From the NCBI GenBank assembly GCA_018267095.1, contig JAFDZC010000004.1, forward strand, positions 62,001 to 126,000: a stretch of DNA of 64,000 nucleotides, read 5' to 3'. The notes under the pieces were generated by a model, which searched no databases, was not told where the DNA came from, and was given only the letters and a program-made list of their open reading frames with translations. Below are positions 526 to 20,160 of the stretch, one piece after another. This DNA is from Bacteroidota bacterium. GTDB lineage: Bacteria; Bacteroidota; Bacteroidia; Flavobacteriales; Flavobacteriaceae. A program made the position numbers and the translations under genes. Position 1 is the first letter of the stretch; the number at the start of each line of letters is the position of its first letter.

Positions 526-3500
526 ATGAAAAAATATTATTTCACTTTATTTATTTGTCTTTTCATTGTTCAAGCAAAAGCACAAGAAACTGCCTTTTAT
601 TACACCTTTAACAATCAAAAAATAAATCTTACAAAAATCACAGGTAAGTATTTAGTTGAATTTCCTATGGGGCTTTTCAACAACAATAATATTCCTTCCG
701 GCCAGAAGTTAAATGACAAAACATTCATAGTTGCACAAACAGACGGGTTAGAAAATTATGGCCTAAACGCAAGAGTATATCCAAACTATTTAACGGATGA
801 TGGCAAAGAAATTTATTACCCCTCCGAGATAATTTTGCATTTTAAAGAGGGAGTTGGCGAAGCTGCAAAAAGTAATTTGTTAACCACAAATAATTTAGAA
901 TATTTAAAATCATCATTGTCATTCAGCATCCTAAAAACAAATGCGGACCCTCTGGAAATATCAAAAAAAATATACGAAAGCGGTTTTGTCGACTATTGCA
1001 CACCAAATTTTTTTGTTAGGATGGACAAAACTGCACTTTCAGACCCACCTAATGACGAATATTACAGCCAACAATGGTACTTAAATAATACAGGACAAGG
1101 GTCAAACGATGGTCATTCAACAACTGTCGATGCCGATATAGATGCCCCAGAGGCATGGGACATATCAAAAGGCGATCCACATGTAGTGGTAGCGGTCATT
1201 GATGAAGGGGTTACCAGTAATCATCCTGATTTGCCAAATACCCGACAAATAAGATTAAACGGCAGTAATTTTGCAGCTGCCTTCGACGGGACCAACAATC
1301 CCGATGATCCATCTCCGACAGTCTCCACAACAACTGGTTATAATCACGGAAACGCTTGTGCTGGCATTATTGCCGCTACACAAAACAACGGCATTGGTAT
1401 TACGGGTATCGCACCATTATGTCGTATAATGCCTGTAAAAATACCCTTAGGTATCAATGGCCCTCAAGCATCAGACTTTGCAGGGGCTATTGACTTTGCG
1501 GTTGCCAATGGTGCTGACATACTTTCAAATAGTTGGGGAATCCCTACAACTTTAACAAATGTGCAACCAGCTGTTGTCTTTGCAATACAAAATGCAGTCA
1601 ACAACAATAAAGTAGTTGTTTTTTCTGCAGGTAATACAGCAAATCGAGTGATAGGAGAGCGAGGTTCATGGGGATTCTTGGGGTTTCCGGCTAATTCAAA
1701 TGTGACTGGAATGATTAATGTTGGTGCCTCAGACAGAAATAACTTGGTGGCAAATTACAGCCCTAGTGGTGCTTCTGAATACAATGATGTCACAACTGGC
1801 TTAAAGCTCAATATGGTTGCACCGTCAAGTACGGCTATTAACGCACATATTCCCGGAGAAGCATCCAATATTTGGACCATTGACATCCCTGGAGCTGATT
1901 ATGGCTACAACTCTTGGAGAGAAGCAGTCACTTCTCCCCTCCCTGCAATAGGTGAACTTCTACCGAACTCAGGAACCAATTTTACTGACTATACAGGAAG
2001 AATGGGAGGAACATCGGCATCAGCGCCTCAAGTAGCAGCGGTTGCAGCCCTTATTAAATCAGTTAACCCATGCTTGAATGCGCAACAAATACGTTCAATT
2101 CTTTTTCAATCTGCTGATAAAGTCGGACCGTACAACTATGAAGTAGACCCCTTAAATCCGGGTATCTCAAAACAGATGGGTTACGGAAAACTCAATGCCT
2201 ATCAGGCGCTTCTTTTGGCGCAACAATATAATTCTAGCTCAGTTGACTTAGTAATAAAAGATTCCCCCACAGATTCAGGAATTGAACCCAATACCATAAC
2301 TCCGTTTATGTGGAATAGCCAAGATATATGGGTCCGAAATCATCAAGACAACGGATACATACATGAAAATCCATTATATGACGCCAATGCACAAAACTAT
2401 ATTTATGTTCGTATTAAAAACAATAGTTGCATATCCTCAACTGGTAATGAAATTCTCAGAGTTTATTGGGCCAAGGCATCAACGTCATTACAGTGGCCTT
2501 ATAATTGGAATGGAGAATACACCGAAATAGATCCAATCGATGGCACAACTGTAAATATGGGGCTTCAAATCGGTGATGGCATTTCAATACCATCTCTCGA
2601 CCCCGGTGAAGAAATTATCCTAAACATACCTTGGAATGATATTCCCAACCCTGAAAGATATACTTGGATTAATCCTGAGCCATGGCACTTTTGCCTGTTA
2701 GCACGAATTGAAGCTGAAAGTGATCCATTTTACAGTACGGAGACATCTGATTTAAACTCAAACGTGCGCAATAACAATAACATTGCTTGGAAAAATGTGA
2801 CAGTAGTTTATCCTGAACCTGCTCCTGTTACAACAAGTGATGAAAAACCAAAAATTGGTGGTGTGATAGCTGTCGGAAATCCATACAATGAACCACACAC
2901 ATTTTTCTTAGAAATGGTCAAGGAAGATCTTGAAACCGGTAAACCAATATATGATGAGGCCGAAGTCAGCATCAAAATGGATGACAAACTTTATCATGCT
3001 TGGGAACGAGGCGGAAAGCAAAACCAGCAATTAGACCCCACACTTGATGAAAAGAAAAAAATCGTAACCGGAAATCACGTACTTTTAAACAACATTTCTT
3101 TTAATGCACATGAACAAGGAACGTTAAACCTAACTTTTAATTTCTTAACCAAAGAGATAACCGACAAAACACATTTCAAGTATCATGTTATCCAAAAAGA
3201 TGCAGTTACAGGATCTGTTATTGGCGGTGAAACGTACGAAATTAAAAAAAGGATAAGACCGCTCTTTACTGCCAACGCAGGTGGAGATAAAGATGTAGAT
3301 CGTAATGAAACAGTGGTCATCAGTGCTGAGCAAATCAATGAAGCAGCAATTTATAACTGGTACGACATTGATGGAAACTTAATTTTCCAAGGAAAAGATT
3401 TAACAGTATCCGCAGATATTACCAGAAAATATAAGCTCGAAGTAATTGCCTTAGCAGATGGCTACAAAGATTACACCGAGGTATTGGTAAAATTAAAAGA

Positions 3501-3756
3501 TAATAGTTTGAACGAAATATCTCCAAATCCAGCTTCAGATAACATAACAGTAAATTACAAATTGAACGAAGTTGGTTCTGCGTATTTGATGCTTATCGGT
3601 TCTTATGGCAACACAAGTATTTCAAATAATTATATCTTAGATGTCAATAGTACACAAACCAACATCAATATTTCAAATTATCCGACTGGTTTTTACATCA
3701 TCGCACTGGTCTGTAATGGCCACATAGTTGATGCCAAAACGGTGATTAAGGAATAA
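526..3756 (+). CDS. Secreted subtilisin-family (S8) serine protease with T9SS sorting domain
   Basis: A 1076-residue protein with an N-terminal signal peptide ending near AKAQ (residue 20). Residues ~30-170 look like a fervidolysin-type propeptide. The S8 catalytic triad is visible: Asp226 in AVIDEGV, His274 in HGNACAGI, and Ser497 in GGTSASAP. Residues ~590-1000 hold beta-rich regions of unclear role. The last ~75 residues (SPNPASDN onward) are a T9SS type A sorting domain. It probably degrades extracellular protein at or beyond the cell surface. It starts 76 nt after the upstream sorting-domain gene and is followed 28 nt later by another T9SS protein, so the three may be co-expressed. The substrate cannot be told from sequence. 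Confidence 0.9.
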   Translation: MKKYYFTLFICLFIVQAKAQETAFYYTFNNQKINLTKITGKYLVEFPMGLFNNNNIPSGQKLNDKTFIVAQTDGLENYGLNARVYPNYLTDDGKEIYYPSEIILHFKEGVGEAAKSNLLTTNNLEYLKSSLSFSILKTNADPLEISKKIYESGFVDYCTPNFFVRMDKTALSDPPNDEYYSQQWYLNNTGQGSNDGHSTTVDADIDAPEAWDISKGDPHVVVAVIDEGVTSNHPDLPNTRQIRLNGSNFAAAFDGTNNPDDPSPTVSTTTGYNHGNACAGIIAATQNNGIGITGIAPLCRIMPVKIPLGINGPQASDFAGAIDFAVANGADILSNSWGIPTTLTNVQPAVVFAIQNAVNNNKVVVFSAGNTANRVIGERGSWGFLGFPANSNVTGMINVGASDRNNLVANYSPSGASEYNDVTTGLKLNMVAPSSTAINAHIPGEASNIWTIDIPGADYGYNSWREAVTSPLPAIGELLPNSGTNFTDYTGRMGGTSASAPQVAAVAALIKSVNPCLNAQQIRSILFQSADKVGPYNYEVDPLNPGISKQMGYGKLNAYQALLLAQQYNSSSVDLVIKDSPTDSGIEPNTITPFMWNSQDIWVRNHQDNGYIHENPLYDANAQNYIYVRIKNNSCISSTGNEILRVYWAKASTSLQWPYNWNGEYTEIDPIDGTTVNMGLQIGDGISIPSLDPGEEIILNIPWNDIPNPERYTWINPEPWHFCLLARIEAESDPFYSTETSDLNSNVRNNNNIAWKNVTVVYPEPAPVTTSDEKPKIGGVIAVGNPYNEPHTFFLEMVKEDLETGKPIYDEAEVSIKMDDKLYHAWERGGKQNQQLDPTLDEKKKIVTGNHVLLNNISFNAHEQGTLNLTFNFLTKEITDKTHFKYHVIQKDAVTGSVIGGETYEIKKRIRPLFTANAGGDKDVDRNETVVISAEQINEAAIYNWYDIDGNLIFQGKDLTVSADITRKYKLEVIALADGYKDYTEVLVKLKDNSLNEISPNPASDNITVNYKLNEVGSAYLMLIGSYGNTSISNNYILDVNSTQTNINISNYPTGFYIIALVCNGHIVDAKTVIKE

Positions 3757-3784
3757 AAAGTAAAACTCACAAAAAAATAAAGAC

Positions 3785-4453
3785 ATGAAAAAATCACTCA
3801 TGATTCTGCTTTTAACTTTTACGATAAGTAACGGTATTGCTCAAGAATATATACACATTAATGTAAATAGCCCTCAATTTAGCTACACACCTATATCGAT
3901 AAATCAACATCAGTTTAATTTTAGTATTGGTATTCTAGATTATTATATACCCACGATGTCAAGTGTTGTCGAAGTGGTAAATGATACACTCGAAGTGAAA
4001 ATGTATTATGACATTACCCAACAAGTAGTCAACGTTAGCAATCTCAATATTTATAACAATGTTGTATACTACAACCAAGAGTTACCGCCCAATGTAACAC
4101 ACATTAAAATGTCTACAAATGTTATTTTAATCGAGGATAATCCGCCGTATAATGTTATTACGGTTGAATCTCTCTACTACAGAATCATAGACCTAAGTAA
4201 TTTAGGTCAAGAAACTTTGAACAAAACAACAACTAATATTTTTCCAAACCCTGCCTCTGATAAATTAACAATCAATGCTGATAAATCTCTCGACAAAGTA
4301 ACTTTTTATAATTCAGTGGGGCAAGAAGTATTAACGATTAATCCAAAATCCCCAACATTAAATATTGATATCAATCAACTAAAAGCAGGCATCTATATGG
4401 TTAGTTTACAATCAAACAACCAAATCGAAACCAAAAAAATAATTATTGAGTGA
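3785..4453 (+). CDS. Small secreted protein with T9SS type A sorting domain
   Basis: A 222-residue protein. The signal peptide (MKKSLMILLLTFTISNGIAQ) covers residues 1-20. Residues ~25-145 are beta-rich with no recognised family. From residue ~150 a T9SS type A sorting domain is clear (FPNPASDKLTI, then VTFYNSVGQEV, then LKAGIYMVSL). It lies 28 nt after the subtilase and may be its partner or simply a second secreted product. Function unknown; export is confident. Confidence 0.8.
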   Translation: MKKSLMILLLTFTISNGIAQEYIHINVNSPQFSYTPISINQHQFNFSIGILDYYIPTMSSVVEVVNDTLEVKMYYDITQQVVNVSNLNIYNNVVYYNQELPPNVTHIKMSTNVILIEDNPPYNVITVESLYYRIIDLSNLGQETLNKTTTNIFPNPASDKLTINADKSLDKVTFYNSVGQEVLTINPKSPTLNIDINQLKAGIYMVSLQSNNQIETKKIIIE

Positions 4454-4816
4454 AGAAAATAAAAATCGATTTTCTAACCATCCAAACGCTTAAAATTTGA
4501 TATAATAAAAAACCACACTAACTCTAACTTTACATTCCACAGTATTAATTTTTTTGTAAAATGAACAATACTAGAGGGTACTAACTATAGACCAAACCAA
4601 CATCAATGTGAATTAAGTGATGTTCTCCAGTAGTCTTTCATATTATCACAATTATTACAAGCTTTGATTACAATTTTAATTTCAGAAGCTTTTTAAAAGT
4701 CGATAACGCCATGAAAACATAATTTCTATTAACTATTTGATTATAAATACAATAATCCTAAAATTTCTTCAACATAGGCTGCTTTAAGTTAGCCACATAA
4801 CGATATTGTTCCTCTT

Positions 4817-5290
4817 TTAGGACTCAAGTATTTGGAACATTACCTCATTCAGCTGCACAAAACCCTCGCTTAGTTCGCGTTGCACCCTCCTAAGCTCAGG
4901 TATTTGATTGCTTCATTTCGTTAATGACTTTGTCCAACTAGGCATTAAACCGATAACCTTTAAATCTGCTCGTCAATCTGCCCCAAAATTTCATCAAGAT
5001 AAGTCTGAAGATAAATCACAGGAATAGTGCCAATAGCCTGTTTTATGTATCGGGTAAGTTACATAAAAAATGTTACCAACGAATTTTCTATTTTGCTGAA
5101 TTGTATTTCCTTATATGTCCGATTGGTGTAAAAATCCAGCTATGTCCCATTTGCTTAATAAAGTTTGCCAACTATAAACTGTCAAAACTCAACACAGGTA
5201 AATTCTATAATTCTTCTACATCGGTTCATCCAACTTCTATCAATAGACATCTATCATGAATTGGTCTTTTCTCTTATGTTTCTCAAACCC
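4817..5290 (-). pseudogene. Possible remnant of a decayed minus-strand gene
   Basis: The interval 4454-5403 holds no intact gene. On the minus strand, short coding-like stretches appear in different frames separated by stops. Nt 5046-4963 reads as IKQAIGTIPVIYLQTYLDEI and onward to a stop. Nt 4888-4817 reads as RVQRELSEGFVQLNEVMFQI and ends at a stop. A weaker stretch lies near 5200-5110. Both clear stretches are amphipathic and protein-like but sit in different frames, as expected after frameshifts. The family is not recognised, and chance composition cannot be excluded. Confidence 0.3.
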
Positions 5291-5403
5291 TCTTTACTTT
5301 TTTAAATAAAAATCATTGACAGCTGTTGTTGGTCTGCACATGGTATGTTTGTGAGCGTAAAAGATCAATAATTAAGTTGTTCCGATATAATAAAATCGGC
5401 TTA

Positions 5404-5421
5404 TTATGATTTCAGTCATAA
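5404..5421. promoter_or_regulatory. Crp/Fnr-type binding site for the nos operon
   Basis: The sequence TTATGATTTCAGTCATAA is a perfect inverted repeat (TTATGA-N6-TCATAA), the usual form of Crp/Fnr/Dnr operators. GAAATTTG, a near match to the -7 motif TAnnTTTG, starts at 5443, 39 nt after the box start. That would place the box centre near -41, a class II activator position. The first gene starts at 5478. Confidence 0.8.
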
Positions 5422-5477
5422 AATCAAAAGTGCTCTAAATCTGAAATTTGTCTTAGAAATTTTAACCTTATTCAATC

Positions 5478-5957
5478 ATGAAAAAATCATTTGTAATTAT
5501 TTTATCAGCGGTACTCTTAACTGCTTGTGGTAAAAAAGAAAAAGAAGCTGGCGATTTTGACAAAGCTGCCCCGACAGAACAAGAAGCAACAGCATCAGAT
5601 GCGTCATCATACGACCCTAATAGAGGTGAAGGCAAATTTGACAAAGTTGATTTGGGCGCCACCTTAGATCAAGCCATGGCCAAAAAAGGCGAAGAAGTAG
5701 CCGGAGTAAAATGTATTTCTTGCCACAAAACCACCGACGAAAAACTAGTAGGCCCGGGTTGGAAAGGCGTTACCGAAAGAAAAAAACCCGAATGGATTAT
5801 GAATTTCATTACCAATCCTGACCCCATGATTGACAAAGACCCTGAAGTTCAGGCACAACTTGAAATTTGTTTGGTACGTATGCCTAATCAAAGTCTTACC
5901 GACGAAGATGCCAGAAATATACTTGAATACATGCGTAAAAACGATGGTGTTAAGTAA
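5478..5957 (+). CDS. Monohaem c-type cytochrome lipoprotein of the nos operon
   Basis: A 159-residue protein with a lipoprotein signal (LLTAC, Cys17) and a lysine/glutamate-rich linker, then a class I cytochrome c domain. Haem attachment is CISCH (Cys79, Cys82, His83). Met135 in RMPNQ is the probable sixth ligand. It is the first gene of the nos operon, directly after the Crp/Fnr box and 61 nt before nosZ. Small cytochromes c accompany clade II nos clusters and are thought to pass electrons to NosZ; that role is inferred here from position. It probably sits on the periplasmic face of a membrane. Confidence 0.85.
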   Translation: MKKSFVIILSAVLLTACGKKEKEAGDFDKAAPTEQEATASDASSYDPNRGEGKFDKVDLGATLDQAMAKKGEEVAGVKCISCHKTTDEKLVGPGWKGVTERKKPEWIMNFITNPDPMIDKDPEVQAQLEICLVRMPNQSLTDEDARNILEYMRKNDGVK

Positions 5958-14694: not shown

Positions 14695-14756
14695 TTTGAG
14701 CAGCTGTTTTTGCCTTAATATTGTTCCAACTTATCTATAATTTAAAAAGTGTTTTT

Positions 14757-15485
14757 ATGAATGATATAGCATATCCAACCGTAGGCGCCATCGTGGCAGA
14801 TGATTTTAGAACTGCTGCCGTTTTTTCAAAATACGGCATTGATTTTTGTTGCAAAGGGCACCGAAGTCTTGATGAGGCTTGTGCCAAAAAAGGAGTTGAT
14901 TTACAAGAAGTACTCGCCGAAGTTCATTCGGTGATGAATGCCCATACCCAACCAGAAATTGATTTTAAATCATGGCCGCTGGATTTGTTGATTGATTACA
15001 TTGAGAAAACCCATCATCGGTACGTAACCGACAAATCACAAACCCTGTTGTTTTATCTTGACAAATTGTGCAAAGTGCACGGACAAAGACATCCCGAGCT
15101 TTTAGAAATCGCTTTACACTTTAAAATCACGGCTACAGAACTAGCGCAACACATGAAAAAAGAAGAGCTTATTTTGTTTCCGTTTATCAAAAAAATGATT
15201 TCAGCTTTAAATGAAAAGCAAACCATTGAGCAACCTCATTTTTTGACCGTCAAAAACCCAATCGCCCAAATGAGAGACGAACACGACAACGAAGGTACTC
15301 GTTTTGGCATCATTGCACAACTCACCAATCAGTATACACCACCTACAGATGCTTGCGAAACCTATCGTGTAACTTTTGCCATGCTGTCTGATTTTGAGCA
15401 AGACCTGCACAAACACATTCATTTAGAAAACAATATTGTATTTCCGAAAGCGGTCGAACTTGAATCGCGATTTGCGATTGTTTAA
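14757..15485 (+). CDS. ric: Di-iron protein for repair of Fe-S centres (RIC/YtfE/ScdA)
   Basis: RIC proteins restore iron-sulfur clusters damaged by NO or oxidants. The 242-residue product has the N-terminal DUF542/ScdA domain with the paired cysteines GIDFCCKG (Cys31, Cys32). A hemerythrin-like four-helix domain follows, with iron-ligand His/Glu motifs (HHRY, KKEELILFPF, MRDEHDNEG and a C-terminal HKHIHLENNIVFPKA). Start 14757 (MNDIAYP) is preferred over an in-frame ATG at 14721, which would overlap the presumed transcription start. It is followed by nrdD after 10 nt. Confidence 0.93.
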   Translation: MNDIAYPTVGAIVADDFRTAAVFSKYGIDFCCKGHRSLDEACAKKGVDLQEVLAEVHSVMNAHTQPEIDFKSWPLDLLIDYIEKTHHRYVTDKSQTLLFYLDKLCKVHGQRHPELLEIALHFKITATELAQHMKKEELILFPFIKKMISALNEKQTIEQPHFLTVKNPIAQMRDEHDNEGTRFGIIAQLTNQYTPPTDACETYRVTFAMLSDFEQDLHKHIHLENNIVFPKAVELESRFAIV

Positions 15486-15495
15486 AACGCCTATC

Positions 15496-17610
15496 ATGGA
15501 AAAATTAGTAATCAAAAGAAACGGTCAACACCAGCCTTTCTTAGACTATAAAATCAGAGATGCGCTCTTGAAAAGTTTTCAAAGCGTATCAATTGATTTT
15601 GATGAACAAGTGTTTGATGCAGTCATAAAAAGACTGTTAGAAAAAGACATTTGGGCGGTTGAAGAAATTCAAGACATCATCGAGCAACAACTCTTTGCTT
15701 TGAATTATTTTACAGTCATGCGTTCTTTTATGCTGTACCGACATACCCGAAAACTGCAACGCGAACATGTGGCCGGATTGAACGATGACACTACTTATGT
15801 CAACAGTACACAAACCATCGAAGAATATATCTTGCAAACCGATTGGCGCATCAACGCCAACGCCAACACGTCATACTCTAACGCGGGTTTGGTCAACAAC
15901 GTAGCCGGAAAAATCATTGCCAATTATTGGCTTGATAAAGTTTATTCCAAAGAAGAAGGCTATGCACACCGCAATGGCGATCTACACATCCACGATTTAG
16001 ATTGTCTGACTGGTTATTGCGCCGGGTGGAGCCTGCGCGTATTGCTCAACGAAGGATTCAATGGGGTGCGCGGTCGTGTCGAGAGCAAACCGCCGGCACA
16101 TTTTAGAGAAGCCTTGGGGCAAATGGCAAATTTTTTAGGAATTTTACAAAGCGAATGGGCCGGAGCTCAAGCTTTTAGCTCATTTGACACCTATTTAGCC
16201 CCTTATGTTTTTAAAGACCATTTATCTTTTGACGAAGTGCTCAAAGCCATCCGTAGTTTTGTGTATAATTTGAACGTTCCGGCGCGCTGGGGGCAATCGC
16301 CATTTACCAACATTACACTGGATTGGGTGGTCCCGAATGATTTGAAAGATCAGATTCCGACCCGAAACGGGCACCATCTTTTTGAGGGCAACTTCAATCA
16401 TGATTTACTGGTAAAAGCCCAAAATCGCGGGGTTGGCGCACCCACCGAATTATTGTATGCACATTTTCAGCCCGAGATGAATCTCATCAACAAAGCCTAT
16501 TATACCATTATGACCGAAGGCGATGCGCATGGTCAGCCGTTTACTTTTCCGATTCCAACGGTCAACATCACCGAAGATTTTGATTGGGAAGGCGAAAACG
16601 TCGATTTGCTCTTTGAGAATACAGCCAAAATTGGTTCGTCATACTTTCAGAATTTCATCGGGAGCCAATATATTTATGATGCGCAGGGGCAAAAAACAGA
16701 AAACCCTGAAGCCTACAAACCCAACGCGGTTCGCAGCATGTGCTGTCGATTACAACTCGATTTGCGCGAATTGCTCAAGCGAGGCAATGGCCTTTTCGGC
16801 AGCGCAGAAATGACCGGAAGTATCGGAGTAGTTACCCTAAACATGGCGCGTTTGGGTTATTTATATGCCGATGATCAAGCTGCTTTTTACGAGCGTCTCG
16901 ATTATTTATTGACTATGGCAAAATCAACCCTTGAAAAGAAAAGGCGTTTTATTCAAGAAATGTATGACCGAGGTTTATATCCATACACCCGTCGCTATTT
17001 GCCGCATTTTAAAAACCATTTTTCGACCATTGGGGTCAACGGCATGAATGAGATGGTGCGAAACTTTACGCACGATCAGTTTGATTTGACTTCGTCACAG
17101 GGCAAAGAAATGAGTTTAGAAGTTTTAGATTTTATCCGAAACCGAATGAAGGAATTCCAAGAATCTACCGGAAACTTATACAACCTCGAAGCCACGCCAG
17201 CCGAAGGAACTACTTATCGGTTCGCCAAAGAAGACTTCAAGCGTTACCCTCAGATTATTCAGGCAGGCACTTTTCCGAATATATATTATACCAACAGTTC
17301 GCAAATTCCGGTTCAGTATACCGATGATCCGTTTGAGGCGTTACTGTTGCAAGATGAACTGCAATGCAAATACACCGGCGGAACGGTTTTGCATTTATAC
17401 ATGAGCGAACGCCTGAGTTCATCGCGAGCTTGTAAAGAATTTGTCCGCAAAGTGCTAACACAATTCAGATTGCCATACATCACGGTTACTCCGGTTTTTA
17501 GTGTCTGTCCGGTGCATGGCTATTTAAATGGCGAACACGAATTTTGTCCTACCTGTGATAATATTTTACTAGAACAACTCAACGCAAATACTTATGAAAA
17601 ACACGCATGA
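15496..17610 (+). CDS. nrdD: Anaerobic ribonucleoside-triphosphate reductase, large part without its glycyl-radical segment
   Basis: Class III ribonucleotide reductase makes dNTPs without oxygen. The 704-residue product starts with an ATP-cone (VIKRNGQHQPF, residues ~1-90). The NrdD core follows, including the SMCCRLQLDL active-site region, GSIGVVTLNMARLG and the C-terminal zinc site C-P-V-H ... C-P-T-C. It then stops at 17608-17610 (EKHA stop) before the glycyl-radical loop that every NrdD needs. That loop is encoded in the +1 frame by the overlapping small frame at 17594-17767. GAAAAACAC occurs twice, 22 nt apart (17596 and 17618), across the frame change. This is therefore either a true two-polypeptide enzyme or a recent 22-nt insertion. 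Confidence 0.92.
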   Translation: MEKLVIKRNGQHQPFLDYKIRDALLKSFQSVSIDFDEQVFDAVIKRLLEKDIWAVEEIQDIIEQQLFALNYFTVMRSFMLYRHTRKLQREHVAGLNDDTTYVNSTQTIEEYILQTDWRINANANTSYSNAGLVNNVAGKIIANYWLDKVYSKEEGYAHRNGDLHIHDLDCLTGYCAGWSLRVLLNEGFNGVRGRVESKPPAHFREALGQMANFLGILQSEWAGAQAFSSFDTYLAPYVFKDHLSFDEVLKAIRSFVYNLNVPARWGQSPFTNITLDWVVPNDLKDQIPTRNGHHLFEGNFNHDLLVKAQNRGVGAPTELLYAHFQPEMNLINKAYYTIMTEGDAHGQPFTFPIPTVNITEDFDWEGENVDLLFENTAKIGSSYFQNFIGSQYIYDAQGQKTENPEAYKPNAVRSMCCRLQLDLRELLKRGNGLFGSAEMTGSIGVVTLNMARLGYLYADDQAAFYERLDYLLTMAKSTLEKKRRFIQEMYDRGLYPYTRRYLPHFKNHFSTIGVNGMNEMVRNFTHDQFDLTSSQGKEMSLEVLDFIRNRMKEFQESTGNLYNLEATPAEGTTYRFAKEDFKRYPQIIQAGTFPNIYYTNSSQIPVQYTDDPFEALLLQDELQCKYTGGTVLHLYMSERLSSSRACKEFVRKVLTQFRLPYITVTPVFSVCPVHGYLNGEHEFCPTCDNILLEQLNANTYEKHA

Positions 17611-17767
17611 TCTTTTAGAAAAACACACCGCTTCAAGAACCAAATGTTTGGTATACACCCGTGTCATGGGCTACCACAGACCGGTCGAAAGTTTTAATGT
17701 CGGAAAAAAAGGCGAGCACCAGCAACGCACCCATTTTAAAGAGCTCTTGCATGGTTCGTCCTGTTAG
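17594..17767 (+). CDS. Detached glycyl-radical segment of NrdD (57 residues)
   Basis: This short frame starts at an ATG inside the end of nrdD (overlap 17 nt, +1 frame) and ends 17 nt inside nrdG. It encodes 57 residues. Residues 22-27 read T-R-V-M-G-Y, the glycyl-radical signature (Gly26 would carry the radical), followed by HRPVESFNVGKKGEH, the usual C-terminal end of NrdD. No other glycyl-radical motif is present in the main nrdD frame. As a separate protein it would need to dock on NrdD, as the small GrcA/YfiD protein does for pyruvate formate-lyase. Otherwise it reflects a frameshift in a formerly single gene. Confidence 0.8.
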   Translation: MKNTHDLLEKHTASRTKCLVYTRVMGYHRPVESFNVGKKGEHQQRTHFKELLHGSSC

Positions 17768-18419
17768 CAACCTAACTCCGTTTACCCTGTTAGATTACCC
17801 TGATAAAACAGCCTGTATCATTTGGTATGCAGGCTGTAATATGCGTTGTTTGTATTGCTATAACCCCGAAGTTGTACTAGGAAAAGGCAAGTTTTCATTC
17901 GAGCAAATCTGTGATTTTCTAGCTTCACGAGTAGGTTTGCTCGATGCAGTTGTTTTTAGTGGTGGCGAATGTTTACTGCACAAAGACATCGAATATCATA
18001 TCAAAACGGTCAAAGAAATGGGGTTTTTGGCTAAAGTTGATACCAATGGTTCACAACCCGAAATTTTGCAAAAATTACTTAAAGCCCAATTGATTGATTA
18101 TGTTGCGTTAGATTTTAAATCCAAGCGCGAGTCTTTTAGACTCATCACGCAATCTGATTTGTTTGATCGGTTTGAAGCTTCGCTCAAAATACTCATCAAC
18201 GGCAACTATCCCTTCGAGGTACGTACCACATATCATTCAGAACTTATAGCCAAAGAAGAGTTAAGTGATATGATTGAATATCTTAAATTCAATGAATATA
18301 CTGGTATTTACTATCTGCAACATTTCAGAAATAATACTCCTACGCTGAGCCCTTTAAATAACTCGCAAAACAACCTCAAAGCGGTGAATGATTCCAAACT
18401 TCAAATCATAATCAGATAG
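17751..18419 (+). CDS. nrdG: Radical-SAM activating enzyme for NrdD
   Basis: NrdG uses S-adenosylmethionine and a [4Fe-4S] cluster to create the glycyl radical on NrdD. The 222-residue protein carries the radical-SAM motif C-N-M-R-C-L-Y-C (Cys29, Cys33, Cys36) and the SAM-binding FSGGECLL. The N-terminal NLTPFTLLDYPDKTACI is typical of the longer NrdG type. Start ATG 17751 overlaps the small glycyl-radical frame by 17 nt. The upstream in-frame extension to 17661 has no family resemblance and is rejected. It ends one nucleotide before the convergent NorB-like gene. Confidence 0.92.
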   Translation: MVRPVSNLTPFTLLDYPDKTACIIWYAGCNMRCLYCYNPEVVLGKGKFSFEQICDFLASRVGLLDAVVFSGGECLLHKDIEYHIKTVKEMGFLAKVDTNGSQPEILQKLLKAQLIDYVALDFKSKRESFRLITQSDLFDRFEASLKILINGNYPFEVRTTYHSELIAKEELSDMIEYLKFNEYTGIYYLQHFRNNTPTLSPLNNSQNNLKAVNDSKLQIIIR

Positions 18420-19745
18420 TTAAGCTGATTTTTGCAGCAGCGATTTTAGCAACCCTACCGCCAAAAAAGCCAATCCCAGAGCGGTCATCAAACCAATTCC
18501 GACAAAAATCACATGTACCACCCACATCGATTGCTGAAAAACACCAAAGGTTACTTTGTTATCGCCCCATTGCCAGAATGTTTTGCGCATTCCCATAAAT
18601 AGCAAACAACACCAAAAAATAAAGAAAAAAGGTTTAAAAATAGACAATCCTATGCGTAGTATTTTTTGTGAGCTGACCGAAAATTTTGACCCTGATTCGC
18701 AGCGATAACTTATGGCAGCCAATAAAATCAGTGTATTGATGCCAATGGTGGTACCCATAGAATGTGCCACTGTTGTGTGTGTTCCGTGTGTAAACAAATT
18801 AATAGCCGGAATAGAAATCAAAAGAGCCAAGACGATATTGAGCAATACCCAAAACCCCGACAAGTTGATCAATTGCTCTGTCATCGAATACAAATGTTGG
18901 GCTTGTTTTTGGGTTTCTTTTCGGGCTTCTTTTAAAATCGAAACCAAAACCACCCATTCAGTCATACTGATGGCATACGCAAAATAGCGCATCCACGGAG
19001 CAGTAGGCAAAAGATATACGTGATGTGCCCATCCAAACATCAGATTGGTCAATCCCAGAAAATAAAAAAAGAAAGCTTTGGGTGAATGTGCCGCTTGCTT
19101 ATTACCACTTACCAATGATACTATATACAGCGATGTTCCATACACGAGCATGTTCCAAGCACCCACATACGAACCACCTGATTTCCATTGCAGCGCCATA
19201 TTCTGAATAAAATGACCTTTAAAATAAGGCAACAACCAAAGATGTGCTTCAGCAAAGTGATAAATCATAAACACGATTCCGGTAGCCCACATCCAAAGAT
19301 AAACAGGCTGTGTTTTGAAACTTCCTCGGGTCTTATTCCAGAAATAAAAACCAAACAACATCCACGAAAGCAAAATGGGCAGAAAAAACACAGACGGAAA
19401 TTCCAAATATTCTTTTCCGGCAAACTGGCCATTCAGATAACAAAGGGAAATAGATAAGCCGATGAACACCAAACCCACATAATGAGTCAGCATCAGTTTT
19501 TTATCAATTGTACTCACCGGATTATTTTGGTTCAAATAATGATACACCCCACCGATGGCCGAGAGCAGAATCCAGCTTACCACCCACAAGGTATGCAACG
19601 GACGCAAACAAGTAAAAGCAAATACACTTTTGCCTAAGCCTGGCCAAACATATTGTAAAGATGCCCATAATCCAAACAGTAACCCCAACAATAACGAGAG
19701 TAAGGCGGTAATTAAAAAATAATCGGGAATCGTTTTATTTTTCAT
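18420..19745 (-). CDS. Atypical NorB/cbb3-like haem-copper oxidase family subunit I
   Basis: A 441-residue polytopic membrane protein, clearly related to NorB/cbb3 subunit I by RPLHTLWVV (His51), GWAHHVYLLP (His241, His242) and FTHGTHTTVAHSMG (His320, His323, His328). Against the orthodox NorB in this window (VVHLWVEG, His187/Glu191; HGH, His327/His329), the first active-site histidine and its glutamate are replaced in QWKSGGSYVG. The HGH pair is H-S-M, so a haem ligand may be Met330 or absent. It overlaps the NorC-like gene by 11 nt, forming a norCB-like pair. It could be a divergent NO reductase or a non-catalytic electron-transfer relative. Confidence 0.75.
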   Translation of the reverse strand: MKNKTIPDYFLITALLSLLLGLLFGLWASLQYVWPGLGKSVFAFTCLRPLHTLWVVSWILLSAIGGVYHYLNQNNPVSTIDKKLMLTHYVGLVFIGLSISLCYLNGQFAGKEYLEFPSVFFLPILLSWMLFGFYFWNKTRGSFKTQPVYLWMWATGIVFMIYHFAEAHLWLLPYFKGHFIQNMALQWKSGGSYVGAWNMLVYGTSLYIVSLVSGNKQAAHSPKAFFFYFLGLTNLMFGWAHHVYLLPTAPWMRYFAYAISMTEWVVLVSILKEARKETQKQAQHLYSMTEQLINLSGFWVLLNIVLALLISIPAINLFTHGTHTTVAHSMGTTIGINTLILLAAISYRCESGSKFSVSSQKILRIGLSIFKPFFFIFWCCLLFMGMRKTFWQWGDNKVTFGVFQQSMWVVHVIFVGIGLMTALGLAFLAVGLLKSLLQKSA

Positions 19746-20160
19746 ATAAAGTATCTTTATAATGCAACTTGACAGCCCCATAATTTGTTATCGCGGCAGG
19801 ATTCGGGCAATAACCGGTCTGATTTACTTCTTTTAAAAAAGCAACCAGTTGTTTTTGTTCGGTACGATTCAAATTAAATCTGGGCATAGCACCGATACCG
19901 CTGTTAAAGATATGTTTCAGATAGACCTCATCTTTATTTCGTTTGCTGTAGATGTTGGTCAAATCAGGTCCGAGATATCCTCCTAAGCCATATAATTGAT
20001 GGCATGAATTGCAATTGTATTTAAGCCAGATAGTTTCGCCTTTAAGGGCTTGATCAGAAAGTTGGATGTTACCAAAATCCGCCTGGGTTGTGTAGAGTTT
20101 AAAATTGTAAATAAGAAATAGACCCGTGAGCAAAAAAAAGAACATTTTATATGATGGTTT
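19735..20160 (-). CDS. NorC-like membrane-anchored cytochrome c
   Basis: A 141-residue protein with one N-terminal membrane anchor (residues ~7-22) and a periplasmic cytochrome c domain. Haem binding is CNSCH (Cys51, Cys54, His55) in the NorC-type context IWLKYNCNSCHQLYGLGGYL. A methionine in GAMPRF is the probable axial ligand. Start 20160 is preferred; the frame extends to 20226 without family resemblance. It overlaps the NorB-like gene by 11 nt, so the two should form a complex. It differs clearly from the orthodox norC at 26.9 kb. Confidence 0.8.
   Translation of the reverse strand, partial: KPSYKMFFFLLTGLFLIYNFKLYTTQADFGNIQLSDQALKGETIWLKYNCNSCHQLYGLGGYLGPDLTNIYSKRNKDEVYLKHIFNSGIGAMPRFNLNRTEQKQLVAFLKEVNQTGYCPNPAAITNYGAVKLHYKDTLYEK

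Follow-up and report, generated by a model that had tools for sequence, protein, structure and literature searches.

A probable two-chain class III ribonucleotide reductase with its glycyl-radical loop encoded by a separate small gene

Introduction

In the parts of the literature examined, cellular class III ribonucleotide reductase (RNR) consists of a one-chain catalyst and an activase. The one-chain NrdDs of T4, Thermotoga maritima and Prevotella copri have a common order of parts, namely barrel, finger loop, zinc ribbon and glycyl loop, with an ATP-cone in the P. copri enzyme, and they are served by the activase NrdG. The flavobacterial locus described here follows the same order, but its glycyl loop is on a separate polypeptide of about 55 amino acids, and both chains are extended at the break. 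Full-text literature searches, covering their sources in part, returned no account of a class III RNR with its glycyl radical on a subunit of its own.

Several known systems share one feature or another with this arrangement. GrcA/YfiD is also a small free-standing glycyl-loop protein that completes an enzyme of another chain. However, the enzyme repaired by YfiD (about 14 kDa) has a glycine of its own, according to the consulted sections of PMC8683613, whereas no intact one-chain enzyme was found in the present genome, and the small gene sits between nrdD and nrdG. In the class II RNR of Pseudomonas aeruginosa, NrdJa/NrdJb, the catalytic chain likewise comes from two genes, the second with the C-terminal parts, although the class, the cofactor and the split point are all different (PMC9669993 and PMC4860495, in the portions consulted). 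Phage nrdD genes also occur in more than one coding piece. Most of those presented in the consulted portion of PMC3653736 are tied to introns, inteins or homing endonucleases and one is unexplained, while the boundary considered here is conserved and lies right before the glycyl loop. Sequence comparison indicates that the locus very probably encodes an obligate two-polypeptide class III RNR, in which a subunit of about 6 kDa bears the radical glycine.

Gene organization and domain content

The window, the whole stretch of 64,000 nucleotides that was analysed, contains these features:

14721 to 15485, plus strand: RIC/ScdA, iron-sulfur cluster repair di-iron protein (TIGR03652, 241 bits, cut-off 204.7; start taken as the first TTG); context, outside the enzyme
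15496 to 17610, plus strand: nrdD large subunit, 704 aa (ATG 15496, stop TGA 17608-17610), with ATP-cone, catalytic domain, finger loop and zinc ribbon
16741 to 16746, plus strand: Cys416-Cys417 of the finger-loop SMCCR motif, which is invariant in 29 aligned NrdDs
17506 to 17556, plus strand: zinc-ribbon cysteines of nrdD, CPVHG...CPTC; C671, C684 and C687 are invariant in 29 aligned NrdDs
17594 to 17767, plus strand: predicted glycyl-radical subunit gene, 57 aa (ATG 17594, stop TAG 17765-17767), in the +1 frame relative to nrdD
17669 to 17671, plus strand: codon for Gly26 of the small subunit, the predicted radical glycine (in TRVMGY); Gly in 166 of 166 pairs
17751 to 18419, plus strand: nrdG, radical-SAM activase of the NrdG2 type (start read as ATG 17751; TIGR02495, 189 bits, cut-off 131; PF04055)

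In profile searches, the large chain scores 1069 bits against PRK08270 (cut-off 548) and 533 bits against the NRDD domain PF13597 (curated cut-off 26.2). Pfam places its ATP-cone at residues 4-86, and the P. copri NrdD structure 8p23 matches it with an E-value of 1.1e-31. The finger-loop cysteines expected of a class III enzyme are present as a pair; double-cysteine finger loops are known in this class (PMC9669993, consulted in part). The chain continues for 17 codons past the last zinc-ribbon cysteine, and neither its ORF translation nor the Pfam search reveals a glycyl-radical motif anywhere in the polypeptide encoded by 15496-17610. The motif is confined to the separate 57-residue ORF, which carries RTKCLVYTRVMGYHRPVESFNVGKKGEHQQR and overlaps nrdD at one end and nrdG at the other by 17 nt each. 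The preliminary description had already located the end of nrdD past the zinc cysteines and the TRVMGY motif in an ATG-started +1 frame with two 17-nt overlaps, and these coordinates and motif positions hold.

The two ORFs cover the family profiles in succession. On Pfam NRDD (PF13597, 562 positions), nrdD covers positions 2-529 and the small ORF 530-562 (E 9e-7); on TIGR02487 (581 positions), nrdD covers 2-548 and the small ORF 547-579. Since the covered positions adjoin, the parts of the enzyme are all present, with a cut only between the zinc ribbon and the glycyl loop. The glycyl-radical motif is thus absent from the NrdD polypeptide but present in the enzyme as a whole, together with the cognate activase. 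In 164 of 166 NrdD-small protein pairs, the open frame of nrdG, measured from stop to stop, starts no later than the small gene ends; in the other two, the contigs end 61 and 16 nt past the small gene. The genome of the window additionally has a class I/II RNR.

Conservation of the split in related genomes

Relatives were taken as the best 80 of 529 related loci from a scan of one genome per species. They span Flavobacterium, Algoriphagus, Belliella, Cecembia, Parapedobacter, Niabella and others. A separate glycyl-loop ORF follows nrdD in 79 of these 80 loci, and in the remaining one (L020) the contig ends 31 nt past the nrdD stop. Within a draw of 199 Flavobacterium genomes, 81 contain an NrdD above the family cut-off and the same 81 contain the small gene. 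Each of these 81 genomes is represented among the loci compared, and all of those loci are split; G587 carries both genes in two copies. The small gene occurs in none of the other 118 genomes, two of which (G463 and G592) hold only NrdD fragments. In the orders of G061 and G329, NrdDs of the window's clade are found in 25 of 250 and 9 of 241 genomes, respectively, the latter order having six more weak matches outside the clade, and all of these clade NrdDs are split except L208. A broader draw of 392 Bacteroidota genomes gives 19 with an NrdD over the PRK08270 cut-off, ten split and nine one-chain. The nine one-chain forms are more distant and lie outside the window's clade; across the family as a whole, the split is therefore not universal. 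The preliminary description had offered a two-polypeptide NrdD as one option and proposed that relatives be checked for a retained split and start codon; the loci above strongly support that option.

Some of the related loci have peculiarities of their own. Three Flavobacterium loci (L019, 5119-5316; L045, 5119-5316; L190, 3120-3317, reverse strand) have an extra frame of 66 residues between nrdD and the small gene, in which the first half of a small gene runs into a repeated zinc ribbon of nrdD; it is apparently the scar of a tandem duplication that is still open. In L173 (G469, 986-3106) a stop falls in nrdD just past most of the ATP-cone, and the remainder and the small gene are open. In L033 and L184 an AT-rich tandem repeat is visible by eye in the gap from nrdD to the small gene.

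The small protein might instead be a spare part similar to GrcA/YfiD, rescuing an oxygen-cleaved one-chain NrdD or another glycyl radical enzyme. The detached glycyl loop on a small protein invites this comparison, and the consulted part of PMC8683613 speculates on spare parts for other glycyl radical enzymes. However, when the small ORF was scanned against Pfam (E up to 0.001), PF13597 was the only domain listed, with no PF01228. In the window's genome, no second NrdD was found besides the loop-less one, and no gene with the Gly_radical domain (PF01228). Nor was a one-chain NrdD found in the other 80 NrdD-bearing Flavobacterium genomes. With no enzyme in the same cell found to have an intact glycyl loop of its own, no intact target for replacement is in sight, and a spare-part role is highly improbable.

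Spacing and frame at the junction

The junction was compared in 166 distinct NrdD-small protein pairs, among which near-identical strains may remain. The ATG of the small gene was picked by rule, and 55 of 207 split loci contain more than one candidate. Relative to the end of nrdD, this ATG lies anywhere from -29 nt (inside nrdD) to +321 nt, and the small gene overlaps nrdD in 107 pairs and does not overlap it in 59. Its frame relative to nrdD is +1 in 121 pairs, 0 in 28 and +2 in 17, and the 28 same-frame loci have one to nine in-frame stops between the two genes. In the non-overlapping pairs, the stretch of 20 nt upstream of the small ATG is rich in A, and G makes up no more than 7% at any position; in the overlapping pairs, G stays at or below 6% from -20 to -8 and rises to as much as 29% closer to the ATG. 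A promoter-like match occurs in only one of 44 longer gaps. The spacing, the upstream composition and the promoter count fit one operon with a separate translation start for the small gene.

Programmed ribosomal frameshifting or stop read-through, the former named in the preliminary description, would yield a single fused NrdD. The frequent overlap and the prevailing +1 frame are compatible with this, but overlapping frames at a conserved site are not present in all members. Frameshifting cannot be the general mechanism, because 59 of the 166 pairs do not overlap, with gaps reaching 321 nt and as many as nine in-frame stops, and because the small gene can be far from the end of nrdD in viral contigs. 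In L239 it lies about 2 kb farther downstream, past three plus-strand ORFs, and in L242 (1970-4662) the order is small subunit, nrdG, nrdD, with an in-frame stop inside nrdD. Read by eye, the junction of the window has no known slippery site. A fused product as the working enzyme is therefore very unlikely, although frameshifting may give some fused product where the genes overlap, as they do in 107 pairs.

Selection on the small protein

The 34-codon core of the small gene has a pN/pS of 0.056 over 3000 random pairs and 0.043 over 2000 closer pairs. The same DNA read in the shifted frames gives 2.2 and 3.9. An Arg, a Cys, TRVMGY and RP are present in the small protein in 166 of 166 pairs. The 13 residues that precede the core are loose (pN/pS 0.54-0.55) except for a leucine that is found in 96%. 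As judged by these ratios, the small protein is strongly selected in its own frame. Its length ranges from 52 to 65 residues across the 166 pairs. At the break, the large chain extends 9-25 residues past the last zinc cysteine, and the small chain has 13-23 residues before R-x-K-C, counted from the chosen ATG. Conservation, co-occurrence and selection place the arrangement far beyond chance.

These data also bear on whether a recent frameshift or a sequencing error broke nrdD in this strain and left the small ORF as a relic. Solved NrdD structures are one-chain, and a direct repeat at the junction, GAAAAACAC, had been taken in the preliminary description to favour an insertion. The repeat exists, but among the 166 pairs it is doubled near the junction only in the window's own, so it carries no weight and leaves the insertion idea unsupported. 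Of the 80 named relatives, 79 share the split, as do all 81 NrdD-bearing Flavobacterium genomes, and the core of the small gene has a pN/pS of 0.04-0.06, which leaves a relic with an almost negligible probability. The broken-gene reading was rejected because the split is conserved; on the evidence of the sequences, the gene is not broken.

Evolutionary history

The tree has 64 rows and was built from the catalytic domain only, leaving out the zinc ribbon and the tail. One clade holds 52 split and three fused rows (SH-aLRT 98), and the other nine fused rows lie outside it. The three fused rows within the clade (L208, L249 and L254) do not form one clade of their own (AU p 1.8e-81). A careful tree without two long rows requires four state changes, and the 5-95% bootstrap range is likewise four, from a bootstrap that had not settled. 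With one-chain NrdDs on the outside, parsimony on the tree fits, as the simplest course, one old split followed later by three re-fusions. From the sequences compared, the split is older and wider than Bacteroidota.

L208 is the clearest case of re-fusion. Six genomes of its genus were searched, five of which bear an NrdD; four of these are split and L208 alone is fused. Its junction, CPDCEDTKCLVY, has neither the C-terminal tail of the large chain nor the N-terminal extension of the small chain, so the two extensions go with the split state.

It is also conceivable that the large subunit is active without a glycyl radical and that the small protein has another role. However, the glycine and its loop are invariant in all 166 pairs, the activase frame is next to the small gene in all 164 pairs that could be tested, and re-fused copies regain the ordinary one-chain layout. 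A radical-free enzyme is thus extremely unlikely.

Plasmids, viruses and phages

Matches occur in 125 plasmid records, 27 of which contain relatives at 42-70% identity, and 16 loci from these 27 records were examined. The split is present in 12 of the 16, from Campylobacterota and alpha-, beta- and gammaproteobacteria: Sulfuricurvum, Sulfuricystis, Azospira, Cupriavidus necator, C. metallidurans, Bradyrhizobium, Shinella, Cereibacter, Aquabacterium, two Paracoccus and Thiothrix, the last with nrdD itself broken. The four fused loci are from Actinomyces, Acidiphilium, Acidithiobacillus and Geoalkalibacter. In seven plasmid records (L247, L248, L250, L252, L256, L258 and L261), the small gene (57-66 aa) is annotated nrdD, and the large chain, where listed, is only 'ribonucleoside triphosphate reductase'. 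The databases thus contain the small gene under the enzyme's own name, and a name search for nrdD returns the wrong piece.

Among nine viral contigs, five have a separate small ORF, one is fused, two have none in the examined stretch and one is cut off. In the two without it (L238 and L241), the 8.9 kb examined contain an nrdD but lack a small glycyl ORF. Their nrdD (2962-5871; 970 codons, 69% identity) has an in-frame insertion of about 250 codons that is intein-like by appearance. Two of 1452 phage records with a match were examined (L251 and L264), and both are fused. The one-chain NrdD of L251 (2459-4888) is phage-like and is extended at its C-terminus by what looks, from its sequence, like a glutaredoxin or thioredoxin domain (CPNC).

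The plasmid loci provide a link to physiology. The nrdD on pHG1 of C. necator H16 has the split form. In the consulted part of PMC2864759, nrdDG of C. necator (eutrophus) H16 sits on pHG1 and, citing Siedow et al., is essential for complete denitrification; the defect without pHG1 is offset by vitamin B12, most likely via class II. Since this nrdD is split and nrdDG is essential, the split enzyme would carry anaerobic DNA precursor synthesis in H16, if there is no other NrdD there. C. necator thus lends indirect support to a glycyl radical and nucleotide reduction in the two-chain form. The same part of that paper gives the NrdDG of C. metallidurans as Rmet_5137 and Rmet_5139, skipping the number between, and the nrdD locus of C. 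metallidurans is likewise split.

Structure model and proposed mechanism

In the consulted part of PMC11226230, the glycyl domain of P. copri NrdD, made up of the zinc site and the buried loop, is the C-terminus of the chain; it is mobile and is ordered only in the active monomer. An AlphaFold2 model was made from the natural pair L003, read through one stop. Its pTM is 0.71, with a pLDDT of about 52-71 around the glycyl loop, and in structure comparison it resembles class III NrdDs. By alignment end points with five T4 entries, Gly741 of the model is within one residue of T4 Gly580 (numbering as in the consulted part of PMC2795772). The local pLDDT of only about 52-71, and alignments with P. 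copri that stop before the loop or are out of register, count against taking this match as proof of docking.

In the proposed two-chain enzyme, the large subunit would supply the ATP-cone, the catalytic barrel, the finger-loop cysteines and the zinc ribbon, while the small subunit of about 57 residues would supply the glycyl-radical loop. Translation of the small gene would start at its own ATG and would often be coupled to that of nrdD through the overlap. NrdG, encoded adjacent to it, would install the radical on the glycine of the small subunit. The two chains would assemble without a covalent link, and the loop would enter the barrel like the C-terminus of one-chain NrdDs. The small chain may enter the barrel once it has been charged by NrdG, or it may be charged in place.

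Genomic neighbourhood and biological meaning

A RIC-cluster ORF is nearby in 59 of the 80 related loci, and in the window it is directly upstream of nrdD. NorB-type ORFs are found in 20 of the 80 and an Rrf2 regulator in 23; hemerythrin ORFs, along with NorB and Rrf2, recur in related loci. Downstream in the window, 18420-19781 encodes a single COX1-family protein on the opposite strand. Oxygen cuts glycyl radical enzymes at the radical glycine (PMC8683613, consulted in part). Together with the class I/II RNR of the window's genome, this setting fits cells alternating between air and nitrogen-oxide respiration, for which a radical subunit that is cheap to replace would be of advantage; with its counts taken from the 80 related loci, it is a lead only. 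The small subunit could, tentatively, be a disposable radical cartridge that is charged, lost to oxygen or nitric oxide, and swapped without remaking the 80-kDa chain. If so, this would account for the retention of the split in facultative and denitrifying bacteria, where nrdDG is found among genes for iron-sulfur repair (RIC) and nitric-oxide reductase.

With a two-chain form so widespread, the radical residue would be absent from many annotated NrdDs, and a gene of about 55 residues would belong to an enzyme of anaerobic DNA synthesis. The two-chain form would also offer a naturally occurring case in which to ask whether a separate peptide can have a glycyl radical installed on it and serve for its exchange, a question that, in the parts of the literature examined, has so far been tested only for YfiD, the spare part of PFL.
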